From Deroplatys truncata (taxonomy: Eukaryota; Arthropoda; Insecta; Mantodea; Mantidae): 64,000 nt of DNA. The notes under the pieces are model-generated. The model was not told where the DNA came from. It searched no databases and saw only the letters and a list, made by a program, of their open reading frames with translations. Location: NCBI GenBank assembly GCA_030765065.1, contig CM060975.1:202220007-202284006 (forward strand), read 5' to 3'. Every line of letters starts with the position of its first letter. Position 1 is the stretch's first letter. The translations under genes were made by a program, and so were the position numbers. Below are positions 1-58,401 of the stretch, piece by piece.

Positions 1-1424
1 CAGTTGAAATAATTTTCCACAGCTCACCTTAAAAGGGTTGAAAATTCAATAATATGTAGCTATACAATTTTCTCTCTTAAACTAATTAGAATTAAAGAAA
101 TACATGCACAGCAACTTTTTTTAAGTTTGTATACTAAGCTCAAATTAAAAACTGCGGAGCGATACGATAAACCAAAGGGTCTAAAAAAACTAAAACATAC
201 ATATATTAACAAAAGTTTGACATAGCTCTTTAAAATTTTGTGTGAACTATATTTTTATGTTCTGAGTATATGGTAATAGAGTTAAAACAATCAGAGGAAA
301 ACTGAGAATTTTGGATTTTGACAGATGGATATACAGTGTTAAAATCGGCGAGTTTAAGGGTAGTTTATGCGGAGAGCCTCCTTAAAATGTACAGTTTTGA
401 GGATTATTTCCCAAACCATTTATAATAATACTTTGAACAATGCTATCGCAATATTTTTGCCAAAACTTTAGGTAGTTAGAAGCAAATTCGTGTTGTAAGA
501 ATCCTAGTGAGGTAGGGAAAAAGCTAATAGATGAAGGGAAAAACACCTATTTTTAGGGCAATGTTGAAATGTTACTCATATAACGCACACTGACAATTTT
601 CTAACACTCATTTTTGCTAATTAGCTTAAATTTCGCTTGTTAGGTACACGCGACGCTCGAGTTTGCTGTAGTTTCCGCGTCACCAGATTCATAACACATC
701 AAGCGTTTGCTCCCTTCTCTAATCCTATTCTCTGTATGACATTTTTAGCCTTAATATACCTAATACAGAGGAACTTTAATACATTTGGAACCTGAATCAA
801 GGTACTGAGGTGAGATGTATATAAATCATTAATAAACATTTACGACAACCTTTCTTCACAAATTATAAATTCCGAGTTTTCTGTAAAAATACCTAATACA
901 AAACAAGCTTTTAACAGCTTCCTTCCTACCTTCTCAAACATTTTTAAAAAGACAAGATCAAATACATTCACAGAGTGGTTAAATTATAAAAGTTTTCAAT
1001 GTGCAAGGATTATAAATTCATAAATATAGCAATAACAAATACTCTCAAATTAATTTCTTTGTTATTGTGCAGAGGAGAAAATTATGTAACTTATAAAATT
1101 TTTATAAGCCTATTTTTTCTTTTCCTCCGAATTCAAATACCTATCCTCGTTGGATGGTAGAGCACAACGGTTTACACGAATTAGGGAAAACTTCAAACTT
1201 ACAGGATATATTGGTAACTTTTCGGTGTGTATTGTAATGTAGATAATTGCTTCCAAGTTGCAAAAATCATGTAGCTACTCTCGGGTTGTTAACTGATTCT
1301 TGAAAAAAGCGATACCTACCTATTAGACATCTGGCCACTGTTAAGAATGTTGTACATCTATGATCGTCGTTTTAAGCTATAACGAAATTACAGTATTAAA
1401 ATTAATTTCGGCACAATTTATTAG
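1..1424. other. AT-rich non-coding, probable intron
   Basis: No ORF with recognisable product, no clear repeat and no RNA gene seen. If the minus-strand exon at 9464-9539 is real, this lies in its first intron or beyond. Confidence 0.5.
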
Positions 1425-2560
1425 TCTTCTTCTTCTTCCCTAACATGGATTAGGGGTTTAGCTAATAGAATTACTCTCTCTAGTTCATACGGGGGCGTCC
1501 AAATGGTTTATAAAATAGTGCTTGCCATGGTAGTCTCGAAGGCTCCATCCTTAGAACGTGATCTTTCCAATTATTCTGATACCTTTTAGTTTCTTCTACT
1601 GTTTTCATCTAATTCTTCACCTATATCTAGATTCCGGAGTCGATTCTTTCTACTTACACATTAAAAATCTCATCTGAGATAGTTCCAATCTTGATTTTTC
1701 CTTGTTTTGTCCTCATGTCTCACACCGTATTTCAATGAGGGCTTAGATGCTATTCTATATAGTCTTAATTTAATATCCTTCCTCATATTTCTACCAAAGT
1801 GTCGTTTGATACATCCGTTGATTTAATTATATATTTTAATGTTTTCTTCCATCTCTGCCTTTCTATCGATTACTGCATGTCTTCCTCTTTATCTGCCAAT
1901 AACATCTGGTCATCTACAAATATGATTGTGTCCACATTTGTATTATTTAATGTGATTCCCTAAATCCCTCATTCTCCACTCTTCTATTATTTTATTCGAA
2001 TATAAATAAAACAGAATGGGAACAAACTATAACCTTGTTTCAATCCCGAGTTAACACTTAATTCTTGTTTTCCTTTATCTATTATTATCTTGGTGTTGCA
2101 GTATAATGACTTAAATGCGTTAATCAGGTTCACAGGGATTTTATATCTTTCTAATATTTGCCACATCTTCATTCGATCAACCCTATCATATGCTTTTATG
2201 TAATCTAAAAATAATATATGTTTTTTAAATTATATTCTGTTATTTTTTCTAAGATCTGTTTCACAGTAAAAATTGCATCAGTGCACGATCTACCCTCTTC
2301 ACCTAGTATTGTTTCTGCATTAGGTTGCAACTGTTTCTTTAATATGGCTGCATATATTTTGTATGCTATAACAAAAAGGGAGATTCCCCTATAGCTTCCA
2401 CAATTGTTCCTTCCCCCCCCTTTTTTGGTGGATGTTTATTATCTTTGCTTTACCCCATTTCTCTGAGAGTTTCCCTTTACTCCATACCGTATTCAGCAGT
2501 TGCAATTTATTAGTAAATAACTAATAGTAAACTGTGTCTAGAAAGCTGAAACATCCACTC
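1425..2560 (-). pseudogene. Non-LTR retrotransposon reverse transcriptase remnant
   Basis: Read on the minus strand, short frames separated by stops and frameshifts follow the order of a LINE reverse transcriptase. A segment near 2330-2420 reads like NCGSYRGISL...AYKIYAAIL, then ILGEEGRSCTDAIFTVKQIL near 2260-2330, then AYDRVDRMKMWQILERY and SGLKQGYSL near 2010-2190. The catalytic block IIFVDDQMLLAD follows at about 1880-1930, and a C-terminal block KYGV...QMRFL...NWKDHVLRMEPSRLPWQA near 1500-1730. The catalytic FVDD is retained but the gene is dead. The pattern matches the insect and vertebrate LINEs whose RT is often annotated as craniofacial-development-like protein; the exact clade is not resolved. 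Both ends are eroded and no target duplication was found. Confidence 0.85.
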
Positions 2561-4072
2561 CAGCATATCACTCAACATTTAGTGGTTCTAAAGCATTACT
2601 ATAATTCTCCATAGTAAAAATGAGAACTTACGCTTTCTCTTTTAGTCAAAGAGAAAACTTCTGCCCCGGTTATAATAATTAATCGCCTTATTTAACTGTA
2701 ACGTGGAAAAGGTGATGCGGCAAGTTTTACAGCTCCAATTACCTGCATTTATTTATTTTCTCACAGCTAACGCTGTTCCACTACGTGCCTTAGAATTCCG
2801 TCTCTGCAATCCTCCTTAATGGCTTTAAGAATATACCTACCTAAAGATTTCCTAGGTATTTACATGTTTTATATCAATGTCCAAAGTGGAGAAAGTGACA
2901 AACATTACAAATGCACATGTTTCCTTCCTTTTTATTCACTCTGCTGTTTCAACTGTCCAAGCATCGGATGGTTAGAGGCCGCTCTACGCTTCAAAATGTT
3001 CAAACCAGTCGGTCATCGCCTCAACTATTCACCAATATTTGATCATTAGATTCTCCCTCTCTAAAATAATTTGTAATTAATTAAAAATACTATAAGCGCT
3101 ACTGTTTAACAATAAATACAAACTTTTTTGAGTAGAGAGATAACGATATTTTTAAACGTTATTTTCCTTCTTTCTTTCCGTTGTACTGCTAACGTACTCC
3201 ATTTTATTTTAAATTTAAGAAGTTTCCAAAAATGATCCCCAGACTAATACATACTATACTACTTATTCCTTACTTCTTTTACCATTTTTGCTTATAAAGA
3301 AATATGAGAGGTAATATCTGCTGACCTGCAATATTTCTGTAATGTGAACTAAACTTAAATTAGCAATATCATATGCTTTAACTTTACCTTTTCAGACCCT
3401 CACCCTTTCTCTCATTCACAATAAGTATTTTTGATAATAGCAAAACTGAGAAGTCAGAAACGTTTTTCGTTGTTTCAATTATATCTGGAATAAAAGATCA
3501 TAGATCACTGCGCTTGGTCTGTGAGCTACACAGGTGCCTGATGCCTACCAATATTTCTAAACTAATATTTTTAAAATAAATATAAACAAGTACACATTAT
3601 TGTTATGCTAATATTAAAGGACAGAGAAATTACTAACGTTTTCTTTTTCGGCAATTAAAAATTTTTGTTTTTGTAATTCTGTAGCCGTAAAATTTCCAAA
3701 CTAAACTTTTAATAATACATCAAATGTATACGTATTACAAATTAGAAAAGTACACAAAATTTAAAACCAAGATAATAATTTTAACAGACCAAAATTTTAG
3801 TAGGAAACCGGTACAAAGTCTAAAATATAGACAATGGATAACATTTATGAAATTATATTCATTAATTAATCTATATGCATTGAAACAAACATTCAGCTAC
3901 AAAGAATTATTTAGTACGTTCCTCTTATTTCTAAGCGATGGCAGCACATTTTGACAGCCCCTTTCCGGCACTTGTCAGGTTAAAATGTGCATTAAACCTC
4001 TCGCAATTCATTACTCCTTTACCGCTAACGAAAGAAGACAGCTTTGATATTTGTGACTAGTTAAAACTTCCT
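2561..4072. other. AT-rich non-coding, nothing recognised
   Basis: Two 76-codon open frames occur here but neither resembles a known protein or shows a biased composition; they fit chance in AT-rich DNA. Confidence 0.5.
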
Positions 4073-4822
4073 CTAGGAGGTATTGGACTCTACCCAAAAA
4101 TTCGATACCGAAAGTTTACCCAATACACGTTTTGAGATACCGTGAACCTAAAGAAAGCAGTTTTAGAAAGAAGGTCTGCGTGTCTGTCCATCTGCGAACA
4201 GAATTGCTGAAAAACTAAACGTCTGTTAAAGATTAAACTTGGTATTTACGTTTAGCGTTTTTCAAGGATGCGATACAAAGATTTTTCTAGAAAGTTCACC
4301 AACTCCAAACTACCCTTTACATGGAAACATTTTAGTTAATTTTGATTTTCCCAAAAATGCTAACGATTTTTATTAAAATACCATAAGTTTACGATGTTGT
4401 GATGACAAAATGTATAAGAAATAGACAAAATCTAGCTGTACAAAAACTTAGATCTCGTTAAAGCACACAATTTACCTCAAATAATTTTTTTTTGTCTTTA
4501 ACCATTTCCGAGATGTTCGTTGTTATTGGTTTGCATTTTTAATGCTTACACTTTTTTTTAAAAAAGGTAAGCCGTTATGCGTTTTTTCTCGTGATCATGC
4601 AAAGACCATGGAATTTTCAAGCCATCGTATAGTGATCCGCTTTTTAAAAATCTGACTATTGCTTTAACCTTCGTGTTGTATCCCTCTTATACCTAGGTAT
4701 AATAAATGTGTAAAAGTGTAATACAAATTTATATCGATAAGCAGGAAGTAAACAGAAGAACAAGCTTTTGTAAGAATAGGTTGTAATGGGCAGAGAAAGT
4801 CGTGTGATTTTTTAAAAAGGTA
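4073..4822 (-). mobile_element. Family A repeat, old degraded copy
   Basis: The 3' end in minus orientation is recognisable by ACCCAAAAATTCGATACCG followed by the TTTTGAGATACC and GATGCGATACAAAGATTTT blocks. The copy closes at GCAGAGAAAGTCGTGTG near 4810. It is clearly diverged and lacks the CA tract. It is the only family A copy in the first 10.6 kb. Confidence 0.8.
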
Positions 4823-7800
4823 TAAACTAGTTTCTAATGCTTGAATGGATTTCTACTTTCTTGAAAAGAACCGCTATCTGTTACACTATTTTTTATGATA
4901 TTTGGACTTAATACTAGCGAGTGGCAATAATACCAGTTCTAATGGATAAGATCTATTGGGAAATCCCAGAAATACTGGTACACTAAATTTTGCTTGCGGA
5001 ATATTGGATCTTTAATTTCAGGCTTGTAGTTCATGGGAAATATGAACTTATTTATAAATTAAGTTTATTCTCTTATTATTAAAACTTAGTTCAGGAAAAA
5101 TACTATTTTGCATTCTGGCGATTCTTCTCTGTCTCTAACTTGAAAATTCTGACTTGCTGGGTGACCTTTGGAGTGCTGATATTTTATGGAAGACTAAAAA
5201 AACGCCGAAAGAATTTGTATTTACATAATGCAATGTCACGAGAGACGGGCATAAAAGAGAAAAATACACAATACTGCGTGGCACGCAATTAGCTGAAACA
5301 TTCATAAAAATACTAAAGAATTACACTCCTGTCGTTCATCAATTCTGGCTTATAGAATTATTTTTAAAATGTATACATTTTCGTCAAAATGTTCTTCTTT
5401 TCTCGGAACTTCCCTACTCTCAAAAGTTTGCTAATTACTTTTAAAAAGTTGAATATTGAATATCAGCGCAGGCCCCAAATTATGAAGGAAAAATAATAAT
5501 GCAACAAAGTACGGGAGTAACTCGTACAATTTTATCTTAATTCTGCTTCAGAATAACCCATTGATTTAAAAAAGACTTCACCAGAATGTTTAAAATTCGA
5601 CATAAAATATGTTACGCTATATAAACGGAGTAGGTGCATGTCTCTGCGTTTCTTAGGAATCACTGAGTGGAGTTTTTGGCATTTTCACCATTCTATAGAG
5701 CGATACTTCAGTAATGTTTGGAGGCATTTCAAAACAATCTAAAAATCGCCCCCCCCCAAGTGAATTTCAACAAATTAAACACAGTACGACGAAATAACGC
5801 GCTTAAATTAAAACAAATCATATTAGGCATTTTTATTAATAACTGTGTATTGACTGCAGACACATGTAAATAATACTGTGGCAGACACGGGAGAAAAAGA
5901 AAAGCTGAGAGCACATTTAACATTCTAAAATAGCAATGTATCTTTCAATGTATCGTACTTAATCGTAACCCTAAAAAAGATACGTGCTTAATGTAGAATA
6001 AACGTAGTTAACTTTTGACAAACTTAGAAGATATTACAGACACGACACACAATTTTTACAGGTACCTACCATATAGTGCAATTGTTTTATAATACACTTT
6101 AAAATTAAAATTATACGTATTATACATCAATTTTGAACCACCTGAAGTATTTTTTTTAACTCTGACTTTATTATAACTCCTATATGTGTTGACAATTATG
6201 GAATTATCCTGGAGCAGTGGTTTCTCGAGTTGTTTCATGCTTGCAGACGGACAAAGAGGCGCTTATCAATGCGTTGAAGATAATCCATCTGCGTCATTTT
6301 ATTTACATGTAAAATTAAAATTAAAACTAATTATTTATAAGTCTTTTGTTAGGAAATACTTTAAGACGCTAAACCGCAACACTAGTGTCTAAAATAAACA
6401 ATAAAAAGATACTAAATTAAAATTTGCCGCGCTCGAGTCATCTCTATGTATTGCTTATTTCCGCCGACAATGTTTCGGTATAAATATAAAGTGCGCCTTT
6501 TAACAACACTGTTTCTTTTATACCGTGCAATAAGCCGAAAGAATGGTCTTAGCAAATATGTGTAAAACATAGACTATCATTTTAAATGCAGAAATACTAA
6601 TTATTGAAGTAATGTAAGATAAACTTAAGATCATTACTTATCTCTTTGTGTTGGTTGATCAATAAACAATAACAAACATTCGTGTTATCAACACAATTAG
6701 AACATGCATACGTTTCCTGACCCTTCACTTTTTCTTCTCAGTATTCAGAAAGCGCTTCGAAATATCATTAATAGATATTTTAGCACAGTTGCCTTTTTCC
6801 CTACAATTTCTCTTTTTAAACACAAAATTTTCAGATCACAGCCTCTAAAACACACGCACGTATCCCATTAGTAATTTTTTTACCCCTAGGAAGAGTCCTT
6901 ATTAAAATGGTGTACTATTTTTCCTTATACTCGCCAGCGTTTCCAAAGCATCTGATATTTAATATTGCTTCGTGCCTAATTGGCAGCACTAGGTACCTAA
7001 TTGATAATTAGGTAGGTTCCGCTCTCCAACATGCAACCATAAAACATTGCACAGAAAATTATTCTGGATTATTTTATATTTATTTCTTATATTATTCATA
7101 AACGGATTTATGGCATATTGCTTATATATTACCCGCTACACGGCTAAAACAGTACAAATATGTACTGTCATTTTATTTTCAGATAACTGTTTAACGCATT
7201 CCTTGAAATTTCGATAAATACAAATGAATGGTAAAATAAAAGTTAACTTTTTAAAAGATCATCAAAATTTCAACTAGCTGCAAAATTTGTAATGCAAACG
7301 TACAAAATAAGTTTATCTTATTCTGCTTTATAGTTTTAAACTTCGGGCAAGTTACAGAAGTAAACCCTGGAATTTTTAGACACTTCCGCATAATACTTAA
7401 GAGTTAAATTCAGGCCTTAAAAATGTCTTAAACGTTATGGAAAATTACGTTCACACTATGAGCTTGAAAATTGCTAATGGGTTTCAAAAGATTTCTTGCA
7501 GGCTTCGGATCTTATGCAAGCATCAGTTTTACGTGTTTACGTATGGAGGCACACGAGTAAAAATTCTATTTTGGCTGTTCGCTTTTTTATCAACCAAGAA
7601 CATACGCTGCTGAGAAGGAAAGGATTTGGCTTCAAGTTAAGCTTATTTCTAAATTATCCATTTTAGATAGATATCTAACCCACTAGCTATTTCCTTGCTT
7701 GGTTAAAACAACAATCTTGCAGCACTTACGGCATCCTGAGCAAATCTACGCATGTAAGCGCGTGTGACCAGTTTGACAACAGAATCACAACATGCGCCCA

Positions 7801-8394
7801 GGTTTCTGGTTATTATACTCCAGTAGTAAACAATTTGAGGACATATCACGTATAAACACTTTGCCAAATCCTGAAACTGCGGGAATTAGTATTTTGGTCC
7901 CGTCAGCGCTCTTATCTTTATCAGTTAAACACTTGTGTTAAGTTGTTAACACTGCATAGCACGTTTCCATGCTGTACTATCAGTACATTTATGTTGTAAA
8001 AACTTTAACAAATGCAAGATAAAGACCTAGGCGCTATCAGGCTCACTGCGTGTTAAACGCTTTCATTTGTTTGAGTTGCACTGAACAAATGACGATCGCA
8101 TGTGGAATCGCCGAACAAAAGAGAGCTAAGTTAACTCCGCAAACATATTTTATTAATTAATAATGCTAAAATTCCATCAGTTTTGTTTTATTATTTATTA
8201 CCGAATATTAACTTCTCGGATGTGTTTTATTTGTAACCAAAAAACGAAGGTTTTTGTAGGTTAAATTACAGGCTTCTTTCACAGAATTCGAAATGTAAGG
8301 TTGTTTAATTATTCCTTTTCACATTCGACAAGCAGAATATCAGTTTTCTATCGGTGTGGAGTATTTCGGAGCATTTTTGCCGAAATGCAAGCTA
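4823..8394. other. AT-rich non-coding, probable intron of the minus-strand gene
   Basis: No transposon, tRNA or coding signal was found over 3.5 kb, unusual for this window. Homeobox-like TAAT strings are frequent but expected at this base composition, so no regulatory site is claimed. Confidence 0.45.
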
Positions 8395-8545
8395 CTAATC
8401 GGCAATATTGTTGCTAACACCTGGCCGTGTTGTTGCGGTGTGACGGCAAAGGCGCGATGAGGGATAAACAAAGCAACAACTGACCGATTCGCGGCAAGCG
8501 GGGCCGGCCAAGGCCGTGAGGTGTTCTTATCGTACTACGTTTACG
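8395..8545. promoter_or_regulatory. Isolated GC/CpG-rich patch within the putative first intron
   Basis: About 150 bases stand out as GC- and CpG-rich (GGCGCGATGAGGG, CGCGGCAAGCGGGGCC) inside very AT-rich DNA, about 0.9 kb downstream of the splice donor. No open frame with splice signals is convincing, so a cis-regulatory element or alternative promoter is more likely than an exon. This is inference from composition only. Confidence 0.25.
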
Positions 8546-9463
8546 TGATTCTCCCTTTCCCCAAGAGTATTACAGCGATGTAATCTTCCATATTTCTAAA
8601 ATAATTTCTAGCGTTAAAATATGATTTCCTCTTCACAGCACAAATTCTGACACACCATTATGTGGATTATTTATATAAATTCACTCGAACTTCCCAGTGA
8701 TATCCGAGTAATAATTATGAAAATCAACATTTTATGTGTCCGAGCAGGAGTTAATAATGAATTAACTTAAACTAACCCGAGAAAATTATTAAAACTATCA
8801 CGAAGCGCAAGAAAATATTTTTTGGAAAAGAATTTCATGACACTTCTTGACACTCGAAACGATAGCACAAAACAAAATAAAGCAATTGTTTATTTTCACT
8901 TCAGGGTCTATAGTAATTCGTAATGTGAAAATTAATAAAGTGATTATATATTTTGGATTGTTTTATGATATTTTTATTACGATATGTCAGGAATAAAACA
9001 ATGAATATAGTATTTCTGGAAGGTGTGATTTATTTATATTCGTGCAGTTAGTGGGAACGGTAATGTAAAAGTAAACAAATACCAAAATTTCGTGTGAAGC
9101 GGAGGGTTTAGAAGGAACCAAAATCACAATTTTTGGAAGTGATTAACGAAAACCTTGAGGTGCCTCAGCGGCTATAAACGTCAAGCACGTAGTAAATATA
9201 CTCGATATCCTCCTAAAATCACTGATAGCCTTGGAAATTCGCGGGAGTATCCGTATGTTTCTTGTATTGTTGGCGACTGGTGCGTCATATGCCGTCACCA
9301 TTAAAAAGACGACACAATTCTGGACCACTTGTGCACTGCAGCGATAGTAAAATGCGTCACAATTCACACCGCTGGCAAAGAGACAAGAAAACACCACTAC
9401 ACACGATGTCTCTTCACTGGTTGTCACTTCTTTCTCACTTGAACACAACATCAAGTTACTTAC
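8546..9463 (-). other. Start of intron 1 of the MSRRKQ gene
   Basis: The intron begins at 9463 with GTAAGT read on the minus strand. The 107-codon minus frame that crosses the donor has no family resemblance and is treated as chance. Confidence 0.55.
9458..9463 (-). other. 5' splice site GTAAGT of the MSRRKQ exon
   Basis: The minus strand reads AAATG|GTAAGTAAC. All six intron bases match the consensus; the exon side ends in TG rather than AG. The intron is phase 1. Confidence 0.7.
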
Positions 9464-9539
9464 CATTTGGCAAAGAGGTCACCAGTCCGTCCTCCGACTC
9501 CAGGTGTCTGATCGGCCTCGCCTGTTTTCTTCGTGACAT
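9464..9539 (-). CDS. First coding exon of a NuRD-recruiting zinc-finger regulator (SALL/ZNF423-like), partial
   Basis: The minus strand reads ATG followed by 24 more codons, MSRRKQARPIRHLESEDG then LVTSLPN plus one base (phase 1), ending at ATG|GTAAGT, a strong 5' splice site. An in-frame TAG lies two codons upstream and position -3 is G, so the start is well fixed. The first nine residues are the conserved repression motif MSRRKQxxP with which SALL, ZNF423/521, BCL11 and FOG proteins bind the RBBP4 subunit of the NuRD histone deacetylase complex in the nucleus. Residues 7-8 (AR) are closest to the AKP of SALL and ZNF423/521; BCL11 has GKP and FOG SNP. A very short first coding exon also fits these families. 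The zinc-finger exons are not in the window, so the family member is undecided. The GC-rich promoter lies just upstream. Confidence 0.8.
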
Positions 9540-10400
9540 GTCCTAGAACGTCCTTTCACCTACACGAACTCTTCTTGTTGATAGTATTTTGTTTTTGTTG
9601 TTCTTTTTTGCCGCGGCGGCGTTGTCCACCACTATTGCTGGCACCGAGCGTAATGACAAACTTCTCTCAAAATTGTGTACTTCCACCTCCCTTTCTCTCG
9701 CTCGCACCCTCCTCCCCTCTCTTCTCCTTTCCCTCCCCTTAATTTATCCACATGTCCGCCCCTGTGCGCAGGTCACAATTTATGATTATCAATATTGGTG
9801 GCCGACGATTATGATAATCCCACTGTGCGGCGCGCTGCTCAACTATTGGACTGCGCAGCGACATAAATATGGATATGATAGCTGCGCCGGTCGGTCGGCT
9901 CCTTGCTGCTGAGACCAGTTCGCCACTTTCTAACACAATTACACACACGCGCGGTAGCAAAGTTCCCTCGGGCGCCGGCCGGAGCGGACTGACTCGATTC
10001 TCGACCGCTGGGCGGCGCGGCCTGTCCCCTTGTCGATCACTACTCAATCACTTCACTCAGAGTTCGATGCCATGGTTCGGCAAACAAAAAACTGGCGCTA
10101 GCACCACAGCAGACGGCCTTGCCCCTGGTGTTGACGGTGAGCGGGCGAAGACTGACTGCCTGGCCAGACCACGCGGAGCACAGAACTGCCCGGGATCGTA
10201 ACGGGCGTGTCTTCCGCGGCGAGGGTCCGCCCCCCGAGGAGACCTAGTGGGGGGAGTCAGAGCACAACTAGGGAGGGATGCGAAAGAGAGAGATGGGTGT
10301 TGGGATTTTCATTCATTCCTTGCGTCGAACGCGATCAGGTGTCTGAGTGCGTGTGTATGTGGACATCCCTTTCCCCACGCCGCTCTCATTATTGTCAAAA
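9540..10400 (-). promoter_or_regulatory. GC/CpG-rich promoter and 5' UTR of the MSRRKQ gene
   Basis: This is the longest CpG-rich stretch of the window (for example GCCGCGGCGGC, GGGCGCCGGCCGGAGCGG, CTTCCGCGGCGAGG) and it ends at the start codon. On the minus strand two TCAGTC initiator-like motifs occur at 9987-9992 and 10150-10155, without a TATA box at the right distance. An A-rich leader directly precedes the ATG. Open frames on both strands here look like by-products of high GC. Which initiator is used, and whether there is an upstream non-coding exon, cannot be seen. Confidence 0.6.
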
Positions 10401-10652
10401 TATTGCAGCTTCGAGGAGAGGATAGAAACGTAGGATACAAGTTACCTACATTTTCAGATCAACTAAATGTGAAATTTCACATTTATAGGAAATACAATTT
10501 TCACAATATCAGTTACGAAAAAGTCTGTATTTTATGATATACTCAATTTTTCTATGATTCTAATGTCTCAGCTAAATTGTTTGTGTGTTTTCAGCATATT
10601 CTTTTTATTGTTTTTCCCTTTGTCACTGATTGCAGGTACACATAAGAAAATG
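10401..10652. other. Transition from promoter to repeat-rich DNA
   Basis: AT content rises abruptly. No feature is recognised before the first intact family A copy. Confidence 0.4.
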
Positions 10653-11476
10653 TGATGTGTTACACTCACATGACTTTCTTTACTCTTGTACACACTATTT
10701 TTACAAACACTTATTCTCCATATGCTTCATGTTAATCGAGATGTTAATCTTATTGCTAATTTTCTTGTAGATGCAAGGGGAATATGGTAGGTTATAAGCG
10801 ATAGTCAAATATTTAAGAGGTGGTTGCTATGTGGAGTATACCACTTTGCATTACCAGGCCAAAAAAAATGAATAAAGAATTTGAGAAAAAGTATAAGTAT
10901 TGGAAAATTTAAGGGAATAACAAGCAATATCTCGAAAATGGTTCACCCAACAACAAAAATGTATATGACATAAATTGTGTATTTTAACGCGATCTACATT
11001 TTTTGTGTAGTAAAATTTTGTCCATCTCTTATGGTTTACCAGTTATGCAAAAGTCGTTCACAATGAAGAATACTTTTGGAGACATTCCCAGAAAATTCGA
11101 GATATGCATTTCATTTGTCATGAAAATATCTTAAACATACGATATTTTAATCAAAATCGTTAGAGCCATTTTTGAGAAAATTAAAATTTTCGAAAAATGT
11201 TCCATGTAAAGGGTAATCTGGGGTGGGGGGATTTTCTTGAAAATCTTCGTGTCGCATCTCTGGAAGATAGTGACCTAAATACCAAGTTTGGTGTTTATCC
11301 GACTGTTCATTTCTGAGTTGTGCTGTTCATAGAGACACAGACACACGGACATGTTTCCAAAAATGCTTTTTTTGGATTCAGGGGGTCTCAAAACATATAT
11401 TTCCGGTGAAATCTCGGTATCGAATTTTTGGGTGGAATACAATACTTCCCCTACTTACTATACGTAGTAGAGAAAG
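10653..11476 (+). mobile_element. Family A repeat, near full-length copy
   Basis: It starts TGATGTGTTACACTCACATG and ends TACGTAGTAGAGAAAG, followed by TAAAAA. The internal CA tract is short (GAGACACAGACACACGGAC). It contains the oligo-A site (GCCAAAAAAAATGAATAAAG near 10860) that serves as target for other copies elsewhere. Confidence 0.85.
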
Positions 11477-11487
11477 TAAAAATTGGA

Positions 11488-26619: not shown

Positions 26620-27106
26620 TTTGGCTGTGTGTCTGTGAACAGCATAACTCAAAAACGAAAAGTCAGATAAACACCAATCTTGGTATTTAGGTACAGTATC
26701 TTTCAAAGATGCGACACAAAGATTTTCAAGAAAATCCCCCCACCCCAGACTACCCTTTACAAGGAATATTTTTCGAAAATGTTTATTTTCTCAAAAATGG
26801 CTCTAATGATTTTGATTAAAATATCATATGTTTAAGTTATTGTCATGACAAATAAAATGTATATCTTGAATTTCCTGGGAATGTCTCCAAAAGCATTCTT
26901 CATTGTGAACGACTTTTGGTAAACTGGTAAACCATAAGAGATAGACAAAATTTTACTACACAAAAAATGTAGATCGCGTTAAAATACACAATTTATGTCA
27001 TATACATTTTTGTTGTTGAGTGAACCGTTTTCGAGATATTACTTGTTATTCCCTTAAATCTTTCAATACTTATTTTCTCAAATGGGAATTCGTTATTCAC
27101 TTTTTA

Positions 27107-28265
27107 CTTTCTCTACTACGTATAGTAAGTAGGGGAAGTATTGCATTCCACCCAAAAATTCGATACCGAGATTTCACCGGAAATACATGTTTTGAGACCT
27201 CCTGAATCCAAAAAAAGCATCTTTGGAAACATGTCCGTGTGTGTGTCTGTGTGTGTGTGTGTGTGTGTGTGTCTGTGTGTGTATGTGTGTGTGTCTGTGA
27301 ACAGCATAACTCAAAAACGAACAGTCGGATAAACACCAAACTTGGTATTTAGGTTCAGTATCTTCCAGAGATGCGACACGAAGGTTTTCAAGAAAATGCC
27401 CCCACCCCAGACTACCCTTTACATGGAACATTTTTCGAAAATTTTAATTTTCTCAAAAATGGCTCTAACGATTTTGATTAAAATATCATATGTTTAAGAT
27501 AATGTCATGAGAAATGAAATGTATATCTCGAATTTTCTGGGAATGTCTCCAAAAGTATTCTTCATTGTGAACGACTTTTGCATAACTGGTAAACCATAGG
27601 AGATAGACAAAATTTTACTACACAAAAAATGTAGATCTCGTTAAAATACACAACTTATGTCATATACATTTCTTTTGTTGAGTGAACCGTTTTCGAGATA
27701 TTGCTTGTTATTCCCTTAAATTTTCCAATACTTATACTTTTTCTCAAATTCGTTATTCATTTTTTTATGTCCTGGACTTGCAAAGAGAATGGAATGCGCC
27801 GCATAGCAACCAGCGTTAAAATATTTGACCATCGCTTAAAAGCTACCATATTCCCCTTGCATCTACAAGAAAATTAGCAATAAGATTGACATCTCGATAT
27901 CTCGATTAACATAAAGCATATGGAGAATAGGCATTTGTAAAAATAGATTGTACAAGTGTAGAGAAAGTCATGTGAGTGTAACACATCAGATTTTTTGTCT
28001 TGGATATGCAATTATCTGTGGCAAAGGGAATGATGCTGCACCTAGAAACCAGCTATTAAGAGATATGTATGTGCTTAAAGGCTCCTATATTTCTATATTA
28101 CCCTTGTAAATACATATTCCCCTAACATCTACAAGAAAATTAGCGATAAGATAGAGTCTGCAAATGTTTATCTGGAATAACATGAAGTATCTAGATGGAG
28201 AATAAGCGTTTGTAAAAATAGTTTGTACAAGAGTAGAGACAGTCATGTGAGTGTAACACATCAGA
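27107..28265 (-). mobile_element. Composite family A element with two 5' units
   Basis: In minus orientation, a complete family A copy (27107-27990, from CTTTCTCTACTACGTATAG to ACACATCAGA) is followed by oligo-T and a second 5' unit (27991-28265), which also ends ACACATCAGA. Left flank TTTTTA and right flank TTTTTTTA indicate insertion as one piece into the oligo-T of another copy. A near-identical composite lies at 58402-59549. Confidence 0.85.
27237..27300. repeat. (TG)n microsatellite inside family A
   Basis: TG run interrupted by TCTG and TATG units at the conserved internal position. Confidence 0.9.
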
Positions 28266-28500
28266 TTTTTTTATGTCCTGGACATGCAAAGAGAATGGAA
28301 TGCGCCACATAGCAACCAGCGTTAAAATATTTGACTGTCGCTTAAAACCTACCATATTCCCCTTGCATCTACATGAAAATTACCAATAAGATTGACATCT
28401 CGATATCTCGATTAAGATGAAGCATATGGAGAATAAGCGTTTGTAACAATAGTTTGTACAAGAGTAGAGAAAGTCATGTGAGTGTAACACAACAGATTTT

Positions 28501-32320: not shown

Positions 32321-32639
32321 TGCTTTTTCCATTCTTTTGTAGAACCTGGGGATTTTAAATCTTCATTGTTGCTTTATGACAGTTAACGTTCTGTCAAATA
32401 CTTTGTTCTCATCACATCAATTTTAAGTTCTTAAAACGCGGTAACTAAATTTATTTCCCTTCAAATGATAATTTATATTCACCATAAAATCTAAAAACTA
32501 CATGCGGGCGGCATCTTCATTGTAATATTGCACGTGTTTTGAGTGTCAAATGTCAACATGTTTTATGTAGAAATGCGGGTTGATTCGTTACTCTGTGGTA
32601 AAGAGGTAGGAAGCGTTGCTGACCTTTCTATTAAAAAAA
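32321..32639. other. Non-coding, nothing recognised
   Basis: The stretch ends in the A-run used as insertion target by the next family A copy. Confidence 0.4.
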
Positions 32640-33488
32640 TCTGATGTGTTACACTCACATGACTTTCTCTACTCTTGTACAAACTATTTTTACAAACGTT
32701 TATTCTCCATATGCTTCATGTTACTCGAGATATCGAGATGTCAATCTTATTGCTAATTTTCTTGTAGATGCAAGGGGAACATGGTAGGTTATAAGCGATA
32801 GTCAAATCTTTTAAGCGCTGGTTGCTATGTGGCGCATTCTATTCTGTTTGCATATCCAGGACATAAAAAATTGAATAACGAATTTGAGAAAAAGTATAAG
32901 TATTGGAAAATTTAAGGAAATAACAAGCAATATCTCGAAAATGGTTCACTCAGCTAAAAAAATGTATATGACATAAATTGTGTATTTTAACGCGCTCTAC
33001 ATTTTTTGTGTAGTAAAATTTTGTCTATCTCTTATGGTTTACCAGTTATGCAAAAGTCGTTCACAATAAAGAATACTTTTGGAGACATTCCCAGGAAATT
33101 CAAGATATACATTTTATTTGTCATAAAAATATCTTAAACATATGATATTTTAATCAAAATCGTTAGAGCCATTTTTGAGAAAATTAAAATTTTCGAAAAA
33201 TGTTCCATGTAAAGGGTACTCTGGGGTGGGGGGATTTTCTTGAAAACCTTCGTGTCGCATCCTTGGAAGATACTGAACCTAAATACCAAGTTTGGTGTTT
33301 ATCCGACTGTTCGTTTCTGAGTTATGCTGTTCACAGACACACAGACACACACACACACGGACATGTTTCCAAAAATGCTTTTTTTGGATTCAGGGGGTCT
33401 CAAAACATGTATTTCCGGTGAAATCTCGGTATCGAAATTTTGGGTGGAATACAATACTTCCCCTACTTACTATACGTAGTAGAGAAAG
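32640..33488 (+). mobile_element. Family A repeat, full length
   Basis: It begins TCTGATGTGTTACACTCACA after TAAAAAAA and ends TACGTAGTAGAGAAAG before TAATAA, an imperfect duplication of the A-rich target. All internal blocks are present: the 5' unit to about 32870, the oligo-A, the GGGGTGGGGGGATTTTC block, the CA tract and the 3' end. Confidence 0.9.
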
Positions 33489-33764
33489 TAATAAGTAAAG
33501 ACACGAGGGAAACTATCCGAGGTATTCAGTCTTAAAATTCAGCATCTATTTTGAATTTTTTGCAAGTTGCCGTTATACCTATAGTTTTCTAACAATGAAT
33601 TAAAACAGATTTATTGAAATGTTCGTTGCTTTCTATAAACTTTGCTAGTGGAAGTGCTGTTATCCTTTTAATTTATGGATGTTTCTGCCTTTGTCTTCTG
33701 CTTCTAGTGACTGAAAAAATTAAAGTATAAGCAATTTTATACTGCATTTAATATTAGGTAGTAT
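33489..33764. other. Short unique spacer
   Basis: Nothing recognised. It lies just outside the left arm of the large inverted repeat. Confidence 0.4.
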
Positions 33765-41030: not shown

Positions 41031-41286
41031 CCTATAGTAAAGAGAGGAAGAATTATATTCCAACCAATAATTTAATACTGAATTTCATCGCGCGCCCGCG
41101 ATGAATCATAAATCATAACTAATAATACAACAGGTTTTAGATAAATACCAAACTAGATATCTAAATTCAGGTCCATCCAAGGATGAGACACAAAAATTTC
41201 GAGAAAATCTTCTCACCCCAAACTAACCTGTGCATGGGGGAAAAAAATCGTAAGTTTTATTTTCTCAAAGTGACTAGCAATTTTTA

Positions 41287-41413
41287 CTTTTTCTACTACG
41301 TATAGTAAGTAGGGGAAGTATTGTATACCACCCAAAACTTCGATACCGAGATTTCACCGGAAATATATGTTTTGAGGCCCCCTGAATCCAAAACAAGCAT
41401 TTTTGAAAACATG

Positions 41414-41447
<34 letters not shown>

Positions 41448-42145
41448 TGTGAACAGCATAACTCAGAAACGAACAGTCAGATAAACACCAAACTTGGTAT
41501 TTAGGTTCAGTATCTTTCAGAGATGCGACACGAAGGTTTTCAAGAAAATACCCCACCCCAGATTACCCTTTACATGGAACACTTTTTGAAAATTTTAATT
41601 TTCTCAGAAATCGCTCTAACGATTTTGATTAAAATATCATACGTTTAAGATATTTTCATGACAAATGAAATGTATATCTCGAATTTTCTGAGAATGTCTC
41701 CAAAAGTGTTCTTCATTGTGAACGACTTTTGCATAATTGGTAAACCATAAGAGATAGACAAACGTTTACTACACAAAATATGTAGATCGCGTTAAAATAC
41801 ACAATTTATGTTATATACATTTTTATTGTTGAGTGAACCATTTTCGAGATGTTGTTTGTTATTCTCTTAAATTTTCCAATACTTATACTTTTTCTCAAAT
41901 GGAAATTCGTTATTAATTTTTTTTGTCCTGGTAATGCAAAGAGAATGGAATACTCCACATAGTAACCAGCTGTTTAAATATTTGACTATAGCTTAAAGCC
42001 TACCAATTCCCCTTGCATCTACAAGAAAATTAGCAATAATATTAACATCTGGATATCTCGATTAACATGAAGCATATGGAGAACAAGCGTTGTAATAATA
42101 GTTGGTACACGAGTAGAGAAAGTCATGTGAGTGTAACACATCAGA
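41287..42145 (-). mobile_element. Family A reference copy with perfect target duplication
   Basis: The 859-bp element reads, in its own orientation, TCTGATGTGTTACACTCACA ... ACGTAGTAGAAAAAG. TTTTTA flanks both sides (41281-41286 and 42146-42151), and the homologous empty site is seen in the left inverted arm near 34030. Layout in element orientation: 5' unit of about 235 bp ending CCAGGACAAAAAAA, a middle of mainly ATCTCGAAAATGG and GTAGTAAACG blocks, the GGGGTGGGG block, the CA tract, then CTCAAAACATATATTTCCGG and TTTTGGGTGG. Only a short CTTTCTCTAC motif is inverted between the ends, and it is offset about 25 bp at the 5' end. No RT or transposase is encoded. Class (DNA transposon or retroposon) is undecided. 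Confidence 0.9.
41418..41448. repeat. (TG)n microsatellite inside family A
   Basis: A clean TG run next to CTGTGAACAGCATAACTCAG, as in most young copies. Confidence 0.9.
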
Positions 42146-42556
42146 TTTTTATTTAAATTCCTACATACGTATGTCTTAAGATATTTGCATTATAAATAAA
42201 ATGTATATCACAATTTATCTGGGAATATCCTGTAAAGTGCTCTTCATTTTGAATGACTTGTATAAATTGTAAGCAGTAAGAGATAGGCAAAAATACTACA
42301 CAAAAAATATAGATCTGGTTAAAACACACAATTTATATCAATTACAAATATTTGTTACGTTATTCATTTCCGAGATATCCTTTGTTATTGATTTGCATTT
42401 TAAAATACCTGTTACTTTCTCTACCATTACCTTTAGTAAGTAGAGGAAGTAATGTGTTCCACTCAAAAATTCGATACCGAAATCTTTCCGGAAGTACACA
42501 TTTTGAACCTCACTGAATCCAAGAAAAATAATTTTAGAAAATCGTCCGTGTGATGT

Positions 42557-47739: not shown

Positions 47740-48231
47740 CAACGGAGGGGGGACACCTCGCACACCGTGACCTACATAGATATATTGCTACTAACACCGC
47801 CCAAGAGGAAGAGATAAAGTGAAGGTACCACACGAGACTACAGCCGCAAGCAGACAGGCCACCGATACGCGCGGAAGTCCCTAACAGTTTCAGGGTCGAA
47901 GACCCGTCCCATTGTTGGAGCTGCCTAAAGAGAATGATGAACGACCCGTCGACCAAGTATCCCTCTACTGTCCACGGGGAGTACTCTTTCCTTAGAGCAA
48001 CACCTGCGCCATCTGTCCGCACCGCCATACACCACGAAGCCTAAAAGCACACCTCTAAGATGAGAAGGAAACGTAATGAGAGGAAAATGATGGAAATGAA
48101 ATCGTGATGCATGATAAACCACCCTAGCATCCGCTTACCGACTAGAAAAAACAATGGAAAACCCAAGGTCAGAGTGGGAGTTGACGGGAATAGAACCCGG
48201 GTCCTCCAGACGGAGTCATCTCGCTCGGTGA
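47740..48231 (-). mobile_element. tRNA-derived SINE, long copy
   Basis: On the minus strand it starts ACCGAGCGAGATGACTCCG, has the B-box-like GGACCCGGGTTCTATTCCCG, then body GGTTTTCCATTGTTTTTTC and AGCGGATGCTAGGGTGGTTT. The GC-rich distal part extends to about 47740 and creates the 97-codon minus frame there. Confidence 0.8.
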
Positions 48232-49178
48232 ATATGGGTAACTCTAAGTTCTAGGGACTCCGGGGTCCATTTGAGCAGTATTTTAATAATTTCGTTCATT
48301 CACCGTCCGATATGACTTACCCGGTTAAACGACGTTAAACTTCAAGGCATTTTTGTTTTGTTAAAATAGTAAGTGCACTAAAAGTGACGAAACGTTTCCT
48401 CGACATACGCCACAATTAATTCTTTGTCTGGATGTCCGGAAAAAAAAATGTGCTTTCCTATGTTTAAACGTTTGGTTTAGAAATACAACTTTTATTTGAG
48501 GGATAGGGGTCACACAGAGCATTCCTCCCAACGAATGGAGCAGAACTACGAACATAGGCCGCCAGAAGGGACTATTGTGCCTTACAGCGACCTGGAGGAA
48601 GTGTTGAGGCGAATGATCCGAAGGTCCACCATATCCGGAAAGCGGTGCGTGCTAAGTTGGGTGCCTAACAATTCCAGACTGAGCCTTCACCATTAAGGGA
48701 CACCCGATATTTACCCCATCCCCAAGGAGCCCACTAGAAGAGGCAGCTCCGTTGGAAAGCAGCTGACAACCGGGATACAGGCGAAAATTCATTCCACTGA
48801 GCGAATTTTACCTCCCTGCAGAGAGTACAATGCTCGTTGTTCTGCAACCCTGAAAGGAAACGAGGGACAGGTTTTTTTTGAGTGGAGGAGAATGATTTAA
48901 TCACTGACCCCAGTCCCGATGGGAGTCGGGACTGAGAGTGTGGGACTCACCAATAGTCGGCATACCCACTAAAAACTCCTCCACCGGATGGAAAAGGAAG
49001 AAGGAAAAGTGGAATAACGTGGCTTTGTGCGGTCCCGCATAGCACCCGCGTTAGTACGTGAAGGCTGTTGGCTGCCGCCTTGTGGGCGGGAGCGGTTAAA
49101 GGTAGTTACTAGGTTGCAGCCATGAAACCTGACTGCAACATTAGTGGGAATGGCGAGAGTTTGGAAGAGAATGGGCGT
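48232..49178. other. Unassigned, GC-richer from 48490
   Basis: A self-complementary CAGTCCCGATGGGAGTCGGGACTG (first part CAGTCCCGATGGGAG, 48910-48933) forms a strong hairpin. The sequence may be the 3' continuation of the LINE whose ORF1 follows, or another retroelement. No RT motif found. Confidence 0.35.
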
Positions 49179-50276
49179 TTAGGAATGAGGATGGTACTGA
49201 TAAAGCTGCTGCTGTTGCTGGTTGAACTCCTTGCATTGCTGCAATAAGTTCGCGACTCTCTCCGGGTTACTCTTCAGCCTGGGACCAAGAGATGAGACCG
49301 GAATGGTTTCGGTGATGGCGGTGAGTCTGGGTGAAGTGCTGTCGAACTGCCCAGTCAGGAAAACCTGTTGAGCATCTGATGTGGTTTGAAGATCCCTGTT
49401 GAGTTCCTCCAGGACTGTCAGCTTCGTCGTCATGGAGATCCGCGAGGAGATCCTAAACGGCGTCACGTAGGCCCTGGACTTCCTCGATGATCGCGTTAGT
49501 GATGGTGCTAGTTTTGGCGCTGGTGTGATGCTGATGTCGGCGCTGGTGTCGGCGGCTGTGGAGCGGTCACTGGCTGCGGCGTAGGAGCTGGTGGCTTAAG
49601 CGGTGCCTTCCTGCGAGGATGAATGAGGCAGAGCGCTTGGCCGGTGAAGTGCGTTGACCCTCCACACGTTGCACAGTAGCGGCGGCGGCGTAGGTCGTGC
49701 TGGGTACACGAAGAGGTGGTGCAGGCGCAACCATAGTAGTGGCACCTTGGTTGAGCTGAGCAGGTTGTCTCCTCGTGCCCGTAGGCTCAGCAGCGGCTGC
49801 AGGGTACTTGGCGTTCTAATCGGCTATCTTTAATTCGTAAGCACTGCCCTAACAAGGGCAGGCCCGTCCTCAAGGCAGCTTCATAGTCGCCAGGGTCTGA
49901 ACTCAATCCTGACGAGCGACCTAGGTCCCTGTGCTCCGAAGATCCGAGTGGCCTTCAAGGGTGAAGGCCACTGCTGGTGAGCTGCGCTGACGAGGAACCT
50001 GACTGGTAGGTCCCTCAGGACCCCTCGGATGACAGCGCTGTACCTCCCATGAGGCACAGGCTGGATCGGCGCAGGCTGGGAAGCTCCCAAGATCGGCGGC
50101 ATTAACCCCGGTGGTGTTGGCGGCGATTGCGACGGTAGTCGTGGCGTAGCTGCGCTGAATGGTGGCGAAGCACAGGTTGCCCCGGGCTGCGGCGAGTTCT
50201 CCTCGGCGGGTGCCGGAGGAGAAGAAGGTCCTGCCTTAGCAGGCTCGGCGACTCTACGTTGCTTCTTCTTCGCCAT
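49179..50276 (-). pseudogene. Jockey-type LINE ORF1 (gag-like), degraded
   Basis: The minus strand opens with MAKKKQRRVAEPAKAG and a Pro/Ser-rich N-terminus. It reaches YSAVIRGVLRDLPVRF and LVRIEF (about 49900-50040), the RNA-binding fold region. A frameshift near 49895 leads to DYEAALRTGLPLLGQCLRI. CCHC zinc knuckles follow (about 49625-49800): CSRC-x-AYGHEETTC with a TGA stop inside, a degenerate second one, and CATCGGSTHFTGQALC. A C-terminal segment rich in Gln (about 49200-49470) ends the reading. The order RRM-like domain then three zinc knuckles is that of ORF1 proteins of Jockey/R1-type LINEs, which package element RNA. ORF2 does not follow downstream. The ORF2 at 60132 could be of the same family. 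Confidence 0.8.
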
Positions 50277-50460
50277 TTCAGAGCTGAGTGGGACAGGAAA
50301 ATTCGGGGAGGTATATAAACATCCCAGTATTCGCCCACCGATTTGAGAAAACCATGGGAAAACCCAAGCTCAGGGTGGCCGGTCCGACGGGAGTGGAACT
50401 TGGAACCTCCCAAATGAGAGACAAAACCGTTACTGCCAGAACCATTTCGTTCCGGTTTGT
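50277..50460 (-). mobile_element. tRNA-derived SINE fragment abutting ORF1
   Basis: On the minus strand a head with AACGGTTTTGTCTCTCATTT and B-box-like GGTTCCAAGTTCCACTCCC is followed by body TGGGTTTTCCCATGGTTTTC. It meets the ORF1 start directly. Confidence 0.65.
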
Positions 50461-51249
50461 TTGCATAGTACTTCCTCAAGTAGGATGCTATGATACTTAT
50501 GTGAAATCACGATAATATTCACATTTTGAAGTTTCTTCCCTAACTGAGTTACAATCAGTGTCGGCTCGTGGTGTAGAAAACAAGTGAAAAATGCTGTATG
50601 GGGAAAGAAAGTACACACAAACAATGGAATAACTATTAATACATTTATCCTATTTTTGTAGACTAAGTCAATCTTCCTGCACTTTAAGGAAGCAAAGTTA
50701 TATATTATTTGAAGGTATAAACTAGAGCATAACCAATAAAATTCAAGAAATAAAAAAACATCTCTAATTTTATATTATACGACATTCCAGAGCTTTTAAT
50801 TTGTTTATTTGTGGAAATTTGCAATGAATTATTGGCTGGCCAGTAATTAAAGGTGTTTCTTGTCCTCATCATTCCACCTATTAAATGAAATTTCAAACAA
50901 ACTATATTCGACATAACTGAAACTAAACAAAAGAGGCACAAACTTACTTGTATTCAGTATTCACACCTCGTACTGCTTACTGACAACTCATAACATCGTA
51001 TTTTATTTTGTTGAAACATAAACAAACAAAAAAGGAGCAACCAAGACATTCAGTGTTCACATGCTTACACCTACTCACAAATTGTTACCCGTCTAAAGCT
51101 CTTACGTTACAACCTGCTACCTGAGGGTGCAGAAGAAATACTTCAGTGTCAAGATTCACTTCCATAGCTACACAAGCAATAATGACGTCACGTTACCTTG
51201 GCAATCTGCACATACAAGATAAATACTGAACCGTATGTGCCAATATATA
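50461..51249. other. Non-coding, nothing recognised
   Basis: AT-rich; small frames without known relation. Confidence 0.4.
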
Positions 51250-51874: not shown

Positions 51875-52599
51875 TTTATTTCACTTGCTGGAGGTTTGAG
51901 TTCGGTTTCCCCTCCCCTTTGGAGAGAGGTCTCGCGCTTGCCTTCGAAGTCAGGATACAAAAGAAGAGAAAGTTGGTGACTTCAACTTCTACACTATCTA
52001 GATAGACTAAACATTTCACAGCTACTGTCAAATTTGATTGTTGTATTAATTGCTGCATTTAAAGCAAATTAAGAAAGCGGGAAATATGAGGTAAACAATT
52101 CGTCACTTACTTCACTTGGTCGGCCGCCTCTAATTACAATCCAATTTATAGCCCAAAATGTAATACTTTTCAGAGCAACCATTCTAATGATGCCTTCCAA
52201 GGGTCCACAGCAATATCAGACCATCTGTTGCCGCCGACCATTTTCAAATCCGATGTTGAAAGCGGGAGGGGGGAGATGTCCTAAGTGCGGCAACTATAAA
52301 AAAGGTTTTGGAATCGCTAAGAGCAAGTCATCACCGAAAGTCTTTTAGAAGTTTTTAGAATCTTAGAAATCTCTGGAAAGCACTGGTTGATCAATCAGAC
52401 AAATGAATAGCAACTCAAGCAATGTGATCTGAGTAGCTGCGATAAAATAACTAGTTTATAGAAATGATTAATTATCTATGTTGTTACGATCGCCAAACAA
52501 CCAGCGCCTTGTAGTCTTCCCCCCTTCTCCGCCACATTTTGGGGAGCTCGAAAAAAAACCCTAGTATTCGTTTGAATTTCTCAATTTTTGTCATTTTTA
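51875..52599. other. Unassigned; possible small promoter near 52290
   Basis: GC-richer in the middle. A TATAAAAAAGG lies at 52286-52296, with TCATCACC about 35 bp further on. No transcript or LTR end can be defined, so no call is made. Confidence 0.3.
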
Positions 52600-53443
52600 C
52601 TTTCTCTACTACGAATAGTAAGTAGGGGAAGTATTGCATTCCACCCAAAAATTCGATACCGAGATTTCAGCGGAAATACATGTTTTGAGGCCTCCTGAAC
52701 CCAAAGCACTTCTATAAAAAGTTCCGTGCGTGTGTCTGTGTGTTCTTGAATAGTATAACTCAAAAATGAAAAGCCGGCTAAATACCAAACTTGGTATTTA
52801 GGATCAGTATCTTTCAAGGATGCGACACAAGGATTTTCAAGAAAATCCCACTACCCCAGAGTACCCTTTACATGAAACACCTTTTGGAAAATTTTGATTT
52901 TCTCAAAAATGTCTAACGATTTTGATTTAAAAAAATATGTGTAGGATATTTTCATGACACTAAAATGCATATCTTCATTTTCTGGGAGTGTCAAAAGTCC
53001 TCTTCTTTCTGAATGATTTTGCATAACTGATAAACCGTAAGAGATAGACAAAGTTTTTCTACACAAAAATTTACACTCGTTAAAACACACAATTTGTATC
53101 ATATACAGTTTTTTTTGTCGCGTGAACTATTTCCGAGATATTCCTTGTTATTTGTTTGAATTTTTCAATATTTATAGTTTTTCTCAAATGGGAATTCGTT
53201 ATTCTTTTTTTTTATGTCCTGGACATGCAAAGAGAATGGAATGCTCCACATAGAAACCAGCTCTTAAAATATTTGACTATCGCTTAAAGCCTACCATATT
53301 CCCCTTGCATCTACAAGAAAATTAGCAGTAAGATAGATTCTGCAAATGTTTATCTCGATTAACATTAAGTAGATGGAGAGTAACCGTTTGTAAAAATAGT
53401 TTGTACAAGAGTAGAGAAAGTCATGTGAGTGCAAAATATCAGA
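52600..53443 (-). mobile_element. Family A repeat, full length, perfect target duplication
   Basis: It runs from CTTTCTCTACTACGAATAG to GCAAAATATCAGA. TTTTTA is present on both sides (52594-52599 and 53444-53449). The TG tract is degraded (GCGTGTGTCTGTGTG). Confidence 0.9.
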
Positions 53444-53449
53444 TTTTTA

Positions 53450-57317: not shown

Positions 57318-57998
57318 ACTACTTCATGTTAATCAAGATAAACATTTGCAGAAACATCTTATTACTAATTTTCTTGTAGGTGCAAGACAAATCTTTTAAG
57401 AGCTGGTTGCCATGCGGAGCATTCCGTTCTCTTTGCACATCCAGAACATAAAAAAAGAATAATGAATTAATAATGAATGACACAAATTGTGTGTTTTAAC
57501 GAGTTCTATATTTTTTATGTAGTAAAATTTTGTTTATCTCTTATGTTTACCAGTTATGCAAAAGTCATTAAGAATGAAGAGGACTTTTGGGAACATCCCC
57601 AGAAAATTCAAGATATACACTTTATTTTTCATGTTAAATATCTTTCATATATGGTATTTTAATCAAAATCTTTAGAACCATTTTGGAGAAAATAAAAATT
57701 TTCGAAAAATTTTCCATGTAAGTGGTAGTTTGGGGTGGGGAGATTTTTTTGAAAATCTTCGTGTTGCATTCTTGGAAGATACTAAACTCAAATACCATGT
57801 TTGGTATTTATCCGACTTTTCGTTTTTGAGTTATGCTGATCACAGAGTAACACACACACAGTACCCGGACATGTTTCCAAAAATGCTTTATTTGGATTCA
57901 GAGGTCACCTCAAAGCGTGTATTTCGGATGAAATGTCGATATCGAATTTTTGGGTGGAATGCAATGTTTCTACTATTTATTATAAACAGTAGACAAAG
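57318..57998 (+). mobile_element. Family A repeat lacking its 5' tip
   Basis: It runs from CTTCATGTTAATCAAGATAA to AAACAGTAGACAAAG, followed by TAAAAA. A deletion joins the 5' unit to AATGAATGACACAAATTGTG. Confidence 0.8.
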
Positions 57999-58055
57999 TA
58001 AAAATTACTTACAAAGCTTATATTAGCCGCATATCCGTATTTGCCTGATTTATCC

Positions 58056-58123: not shown

Positions 58124-58401
58124 TCGTTGTCTTATAGCTCACAAACAATGTATTTTAATAATTTACTTTACGAAAAATAAGTTTTACTATGTTAGTAAGC
58201 GTAGGTAACCTTTGTTTCTTCCTTCAAACTAACTCTCAGAAGTTAAGAGTTTATTACCGTTCTTTTCGCTGTAATAGACTATTGTATGGCTTTTGAATAC
58301 TGTCATACGATCATTGATTATGGTTTGAGAAAGAAATAAGATGCATTCACATGCGTTTGTTTATCCATTCTTCTACAAACTATTCTTAGAGCAGTTTTTT
58401 A

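Follow-up and report, generated by a model that had tools for sequence, protein, structure and literature searches.

The 64,000-base stretch of Deroplatys truncata DNA analysed here (the window; C1:202220007-202284006, on contig C1 of the species' own assembly) carries on its minus strand a 76-base coding exon at C1:202229470-202229545, whose translation opens with MSRRKQARP, a motif of the type that recruits the NuRD deacetylase-remodeller. Judged from sequence, the exon can be assigned with near certainty to the spalt (SALL) gene, as its exon 1. Four features define it, with positions counted from the first base of the window:

9464..9539, minus strand: coding part of the putative spalt exon 1 (25 codons and one base of a 26th, phase 1), joining the predicted spalt exon 2 in frame
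9513..9539, minus strand: N-terminal NuRD-interaction motif MSRRKQARP (consensus RRKQxxP, PMC11602157)
9543..9545, minus strand: in-frame TAG stop, two codons 5' of the ATG
9458..9463, minus strand: splice donor GTAAGT

Read from minus-strand 9539 to 9464, the exon DNA (ATGTCACGAAGAAAACAGGCGAGGCCGATCAGACACCTGGAGTCGGAGGACGGACTGGTGACCTCTTTGCCAAATG, then GTAAGTAAC) encodes MSRRKQARPIRHLESEDGLVTSLPN plus one base and runs directly into GTAAGT. The start codon is fixed by the in-frame TAG two codons upstream, and an unspliced reading past the exon gains just G and K before a stop (GGT AAG TAA). With a simple weight matrix using generic weights, the donor ranks 19 of 7,162 GT sites. MSRRKQ occurs a single time in all six frames of the window, where base composition predicts 0.0012 occurrences of MSRRKQ and 0.00004 of MSRRKQxxP; in 300 order-1 Markov shuffles of the window MSRRKQ never came up, and RRKQxxP did so at a rate of 0.03 per shuffle. 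Searched against the 4.29-Gb assembly at E <=0.001, the 25 residues recover just the exon itself (E 1e-8), and region 8000-10400 has no other match in the rest of the window at E 0.001. Neither solved structures (0 matches, E cut-off 10) nor Pfam returned anything for these residues, as their shortness would lead one to expect; among the papers searched, two contain MSRRKQAKP and none MSRRKQARP. Scanning the window for Rfam families and tRNAs gave no hits. The initial annotation had described a tiny first coding exon with MSRRKQxxP at its N-terminus, an upstream in-frame stop and a strong donor; all three hold, and the observation is confirmed.

To which gene does the exon belong? An N-terminal RRKQxxP is described as binding RBBP4 and recruiting NuRD in FOG-1, SALL1, SALL4, BCL11A and others (PMC11602157), and since several families share the motif, it cannot by itself name the gene. 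For a spalt double finger (pair 3) searched across the whole assembly, the best match among the matches listed is C1:201647401-201647673 on the minus strand (84% identity, E 4.9e-49), within a 1,188-codon frame left of exon 1 on the same contig and strand. The second-ranked match (46%) is another finger pair of this same frame, the next eight lie at other loci (41-49%), and among the matches listed no other exceeds 56%. The frame, taken as exon 2, holds a C2HC finger 1 (CGICQTEFLDLSEYIEHKKEC) in frame with exon 1, a glutamine-rich stretch separating finger 1 from finger 2 (LQHQQVMQLSLIQQLQQQLQ), the Sal-box FTTKGNLK in both finger pairs found (2/2) and, behind pair 3, an extra finger. All of these are among the features given for Sall proteins (PMC5892016). 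Matches of the two halves of exon 2 to solved structures include Sal-like proteins 4 and 3, and several other C2H2 proteins outscore these. A candidate donor, GTATGT, follows GPAG.

The predicted junction between the two exons is in phase. The acceptor, TTTTTTGCAG followed by GC, is of textbook type (longer 5' context TTTTTGTTTTCCTTTTTTGCAG before the same GC), and exon 2 starts GC GAG. The splice would create a glycine codon, giving ...SLPN-G-ESSASGS... and reading on to CGICQTEFLDLSEYIEHKKEC; the joined frame stays open through the junction to the C2HC finger (...SLPNGESSASGSEDE..., also ...SLPNGESSASGSEDEGGG...HICGICQTEFLDLSEYIEHKKECC). The interval that starts 103 bases upstream and ends with the chosen acceptor has five AG sites, of which the chosen one alone reads through to the finger. 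The implied intron 1, measured from this predicted junction, is 579,400 bases long, and its first part lies in the window:

1..9463, minus strand: first 9,463 bases of intron 1, continuing to G000:C1:201650070; minus strand free of C2H2 finger patterns

The initial annotation had the gene continuing leftwards past an intron of at least 9.4 kb, a bound that the 579.4 kb now implied far exceeds, and it had proposed to give up the assignment if the left flank held no minus-strand C2H2 gene; this was checked and is not the case, spalt being there.

Exon length and the residues behind the motif point to the same family. The 12-residue NuRD-interaction motif expected of spalt/SALL (RRKQxxP) is present as MSRRKQARPIRH. 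Human SALL2-E1 is described as having 25 N-terminal residues of its own relative to SALL2-E1A (PMC7937961), the same number as on exon 1 here, and Drosophila Ush-B as having 14 unique residues (PMC7891773). The 16 residues after position 9 were compared with ten human N-termini, using 2,000 shuffles. The best tails, given as the fraction of shuffles reaching the score, are those of SALL1 (0.0015), SALL4 (0.0075) and SALL3 (0.01), followed by BCL11B (0.089), ZNF423 (0.128), ZNF521 (0.185), SALL2 (0.252), FOG2 (0.421), BCL11A (0.532) and FOG1 (0.7425). Because ten comparisons were made, the tail supports spalt without proving it.

A genome-wide pattern search for the motif, with both serine codon sets and with reversed patterns as control, gave 10 forward against 2 reversed matches. 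Seven of the 10 encode MSRRKQxxP and the other three (3/10) have a serine replacing an arginine. A GTRAGT donor straight after a short tail is found in three of the seven, all in phase 1: exon 1 and one exon each on C8 and C12. The C8 exon (C8:102652835+, L038) encodes MSRRKQAKPRALK plus one base, then GTAAGT, with the tail AKPRALK; it is nearly identical to the N-terminus of human ZNF521, which we take to be MSRRKQAKPRSLK. The C12 exon (C12:48518169-, L040) encodes MSRRKQSNPKPLK plus one base, then GTGAGT. Compared with human sequences, the tails make the C8 exon look Oaz (ZNF423/521)-like and the C12 exon u-shaped (FOG)-like, and Drosophila Ush and OAZ are both reported to carry the NuRD motif (PMC7891773). 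The remaining four MSRRKQxxP copies, at C1:146.4 Mb, C16:497.8 Mb, C11:98.9 Mb and C12:113.3 Mb, look like chance occurrences; by eye none has a GTRAGT donor before its stop, and their surroundings have CpG observed/expected (o/e) ratios of 0.29-0.67.

BCL11 places its body elsewhere. Its finger exon lies at G000:C4:148673228-148674790, the best match among the matches listed being C4:148674551-148674790 on the plus strand (88% identity), and not downstream of exon 1 on its contig and strand. No MSRRKQxxP pattern match lies on C4, the contig of this body, so the N-terminus of BCL11 may be of another sequence or have an intron dividing it. Among the matches listed, the finger queries also return many clustered C2H2 frames on C9, C10, C12, C13, C14 and C15, with lengths of about 260-870 codons, which suggests expanded zinc-finger arrays on these contigs.

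Set beside the known systems, the locus resembles vertebrate SALL1-SALL4 and arthropod spalt in having a short first exon that carries the 12-residue NuRD motif, followed by one large zinc-finger exon with a C2HC finger 1, a Q-rich stretch and FTTKGNLK paired fingers; exon 1 also equals the isoform-specific N-terminus of SALL2-E1 in length (25 residues against 25). It differs from them in the tail ARPIRHLE, in the implied 579-kb first intron and in fingers 4 and 5, which are unlocated. In the system of Drosophila u-shaped isoform B and FOG1, an alternative transcript supplies the motif on a short N-terminus peculiar to the isoform, and the motif binds NuRD in flies (PMC7891773), but this genome appears to have its own FOG-like exon on C12; residues 7-8 are AR here, against MSRRKQSNP and about 14 unique residues in the FOG/u-shaped type, and the exon has 25. 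BCL11A/B and CG9650 share the N-terminal RRKQxxP, on exon 1 in BCL11B (PMC6644156), but differ here in having the body on C4. The initial annotation had favoured a SALL or Oaz type over BCL11 or FOG, a choice that is supported, and had left spalt and Oaz undecided; the in-phase junction, the exon length and the tail now favour spalt.

Oaz (ZNF423/ZNF521) is one rival family. The same motif occurs there on a short or alternatively promoted exon, ZNF521 included (PMC4695665), and residues 7-8, AR, resemble the AK of the Oaz type. The tail here nevertheless reads ARPIRHLESED and not AKPRSLK (as in human ZNF521), and after residue 9 it is unlike ZNF521 or ZNF423 in the shuffle comparison. The Oaz-like exon on C8, with its AKPRALK tail, is a separate one. 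Exon 1 joins spalt in phase; searching the genome with Oaz fingers singled out no locus for the many-fingered Oaz body (best 46% identity among the matches listed, little above many others). That exon 1 belongs to Oaz is very improbable. Much the same holds for the idea that it opens another gene, C2H2 or not, within the 579-kb interval. The intron sequence examined comes to about 217 kb of 579 kb (the window's 9.5 kb, the adjoining 200 kb on the left and 7.9 kb beside exon 2), leaving about 362 kb in which such a gene could lie. On the minus strand, however, the nearest 209 kb hold no C2H2 finger pattern except one stop-flanked C2HC match at C1:202207963, positions 1-9463 hold no long open frame and no C2H2 finger, and among the matches listed the spalt, Oaz and BCL11 finger queries have no place on C1 between the two exons. 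Phase, exon length and tail all fit spalt, and we would give a gene of the interval very little credence. Could the motif be spelled by a chance open frame? Four of the seven genome-wide copies look like chance, but exon 1 has an upstream in-frame stop, a consensus donor just before its frame closes, CpG-undepleted surroundings (o/e 1.10 around the locus, L036) and, on its own strand, a spalt exon in matching phase; chance is extremely unlikely as its origin.

Some observations do weigh against the spalt assignment. Sixteen AG sites 12 to 96 bases inside exon 2 likewise keep the frame open, and the exact acceptor is for that reason a best prediction. Splicing of exon 1 to exon 2 is itself predicted from the in-phase junction in DNA, and another gene could lie within the roughly 362 kb of intron outside the examined part. 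About 8.5 kb downstream of the exon-2 frame were searched for finger pairs 4 and 5, and neither turned up; loss of ZF4 or ZF5 (zinc fingers) is reported for some lineages (PMC5892016). The SALL2 tail, an exception within its family, does not rise above shuffles in the comparison with human tails. Finally, the Oaz and FOG labels of the C8 and C12 exons derive from the tails alone because both gene bodies are unlocated. Taking both sides together, it is very probable that the 76 bases are the first coding exon of spalt, on the minus strand, spliced in phase 1 across the 579,400-base intron to the zinc-finger exon; the N-terminus they encode probably recruits NuRD. The gene is a conserved member of a known family, unusual solely in how long its first intron is.

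Upstream of the exon, three further features can be placed:

9540..10250, minus strand: probable 5' untranslated region and promoter, G+C-rich (0.56) and CpG-undepleted (o/e 1.05)
9987..9992, minus strand: TCAGTC, second initiator-like hexamer, a consensus match only
10150..10155, minus strand: TCAGTC, initiator-like hexamer and possible start site, a consensus match only

Both hexamers match the consensus for initiator elements. The initial annotation had envisaged a CpG-rich promoter ending at the start codon. The richness stands, but not the ending: over the opening 1.5 kb of intron 1 (8001-9463) CpG o/e is 1.27, above the 1.05 of 9540-10250, so the CpG-rich stretch continues past the start codon. 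The window also holds at least 8 full or partial copies of a repeat some 850 bases long (10647-11482, 27101-28276, 32634-33494, 41281-42150, 52594-53448, 54878-55716, 57477-58007 and 58396-59287) at roughly 79-94% identity, one of which begins about 400 bases beyond the promoter region on its upstream side. A second G+C-rich stretch (up to 0.6), at 48000-51000, has three minus-strand open frames of 134-162 codons, two of which were scanned and show no Pfam family above cut-off. Two of the longest open frames in 1-9463 are reverse-transcriptase fragments. Retroelement fragments (Pfam RVT_1) lie on the minus strand at 1990-2435, inside intron 1 and under the Pfam cut-off (E 1.8e-6 and 0.0012), and at 61830-62330, above it.

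How would such a gene work? Transcription of spalt would run on the minus strand, probably starting in the G+C-rich stretch just upstream of exon 1, and exon 1 would be spliced in phase 1 to the large zinc-finger exon 2. The consensus residues for RBBP4/p55 binding are present in the exon-1 motif. By analogy with its relatives, the N-terminal tail probably docks RBBP4/p55 and brings in NuRD: the basic residues of MSRRKQARP would insert into the acidic face of RBBP4/p55, docking would recruit NuRD, and spalt would thereby repress its targets. Since the motif stands alone on its own exon, a transcript started downstream would encode spalt without the NuRD tag, as in SALL2-E1A and in a SALL1 isoform: isoform 2 of SALL1 is reported to lack exon 1 (PMC8699250), and for SALL2 the motif is described in isoform E1 (PMC7937961). 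The 7.9 kb before exon 2 contain 0 alternative phase-1 first exons with a GTRAGT donor. Binding of dNuRD is reported for the Ush-B motif of flies, Ush-B being alone in this among the two major isoforms (PMC7891773).

The length of intron 1 invites a further proposal. RNA polymerase elongates at 1-2 kb per minute, at which rate transcription of intron 1 would take roughly 5 to 10 hours. The intron might then be functional, holding spalt patterning enhancers and acting as a several-hour timer on the full-length, NuRD-recruiting spalt, with a nearer promoter giving a faster NuRD-free form; this is speculative and on balance unlikely. A literature search on giant insect introns returned nothing useful among the titles found, and no record length is claimed.

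The likely spalt N-terminus and promoter are now supplied for this genome. They also illustrate how a nine-residue functional tag may escape notice, as annotation can miss a 76-base exon more than 0.5 Mb from the gene body. According to a survey of Sall proteins, some animal groups have lost the NuRD motif (PMC5892016); with so small and distant a motif exon found here, such reported losses in large genomes are worth rechecking.
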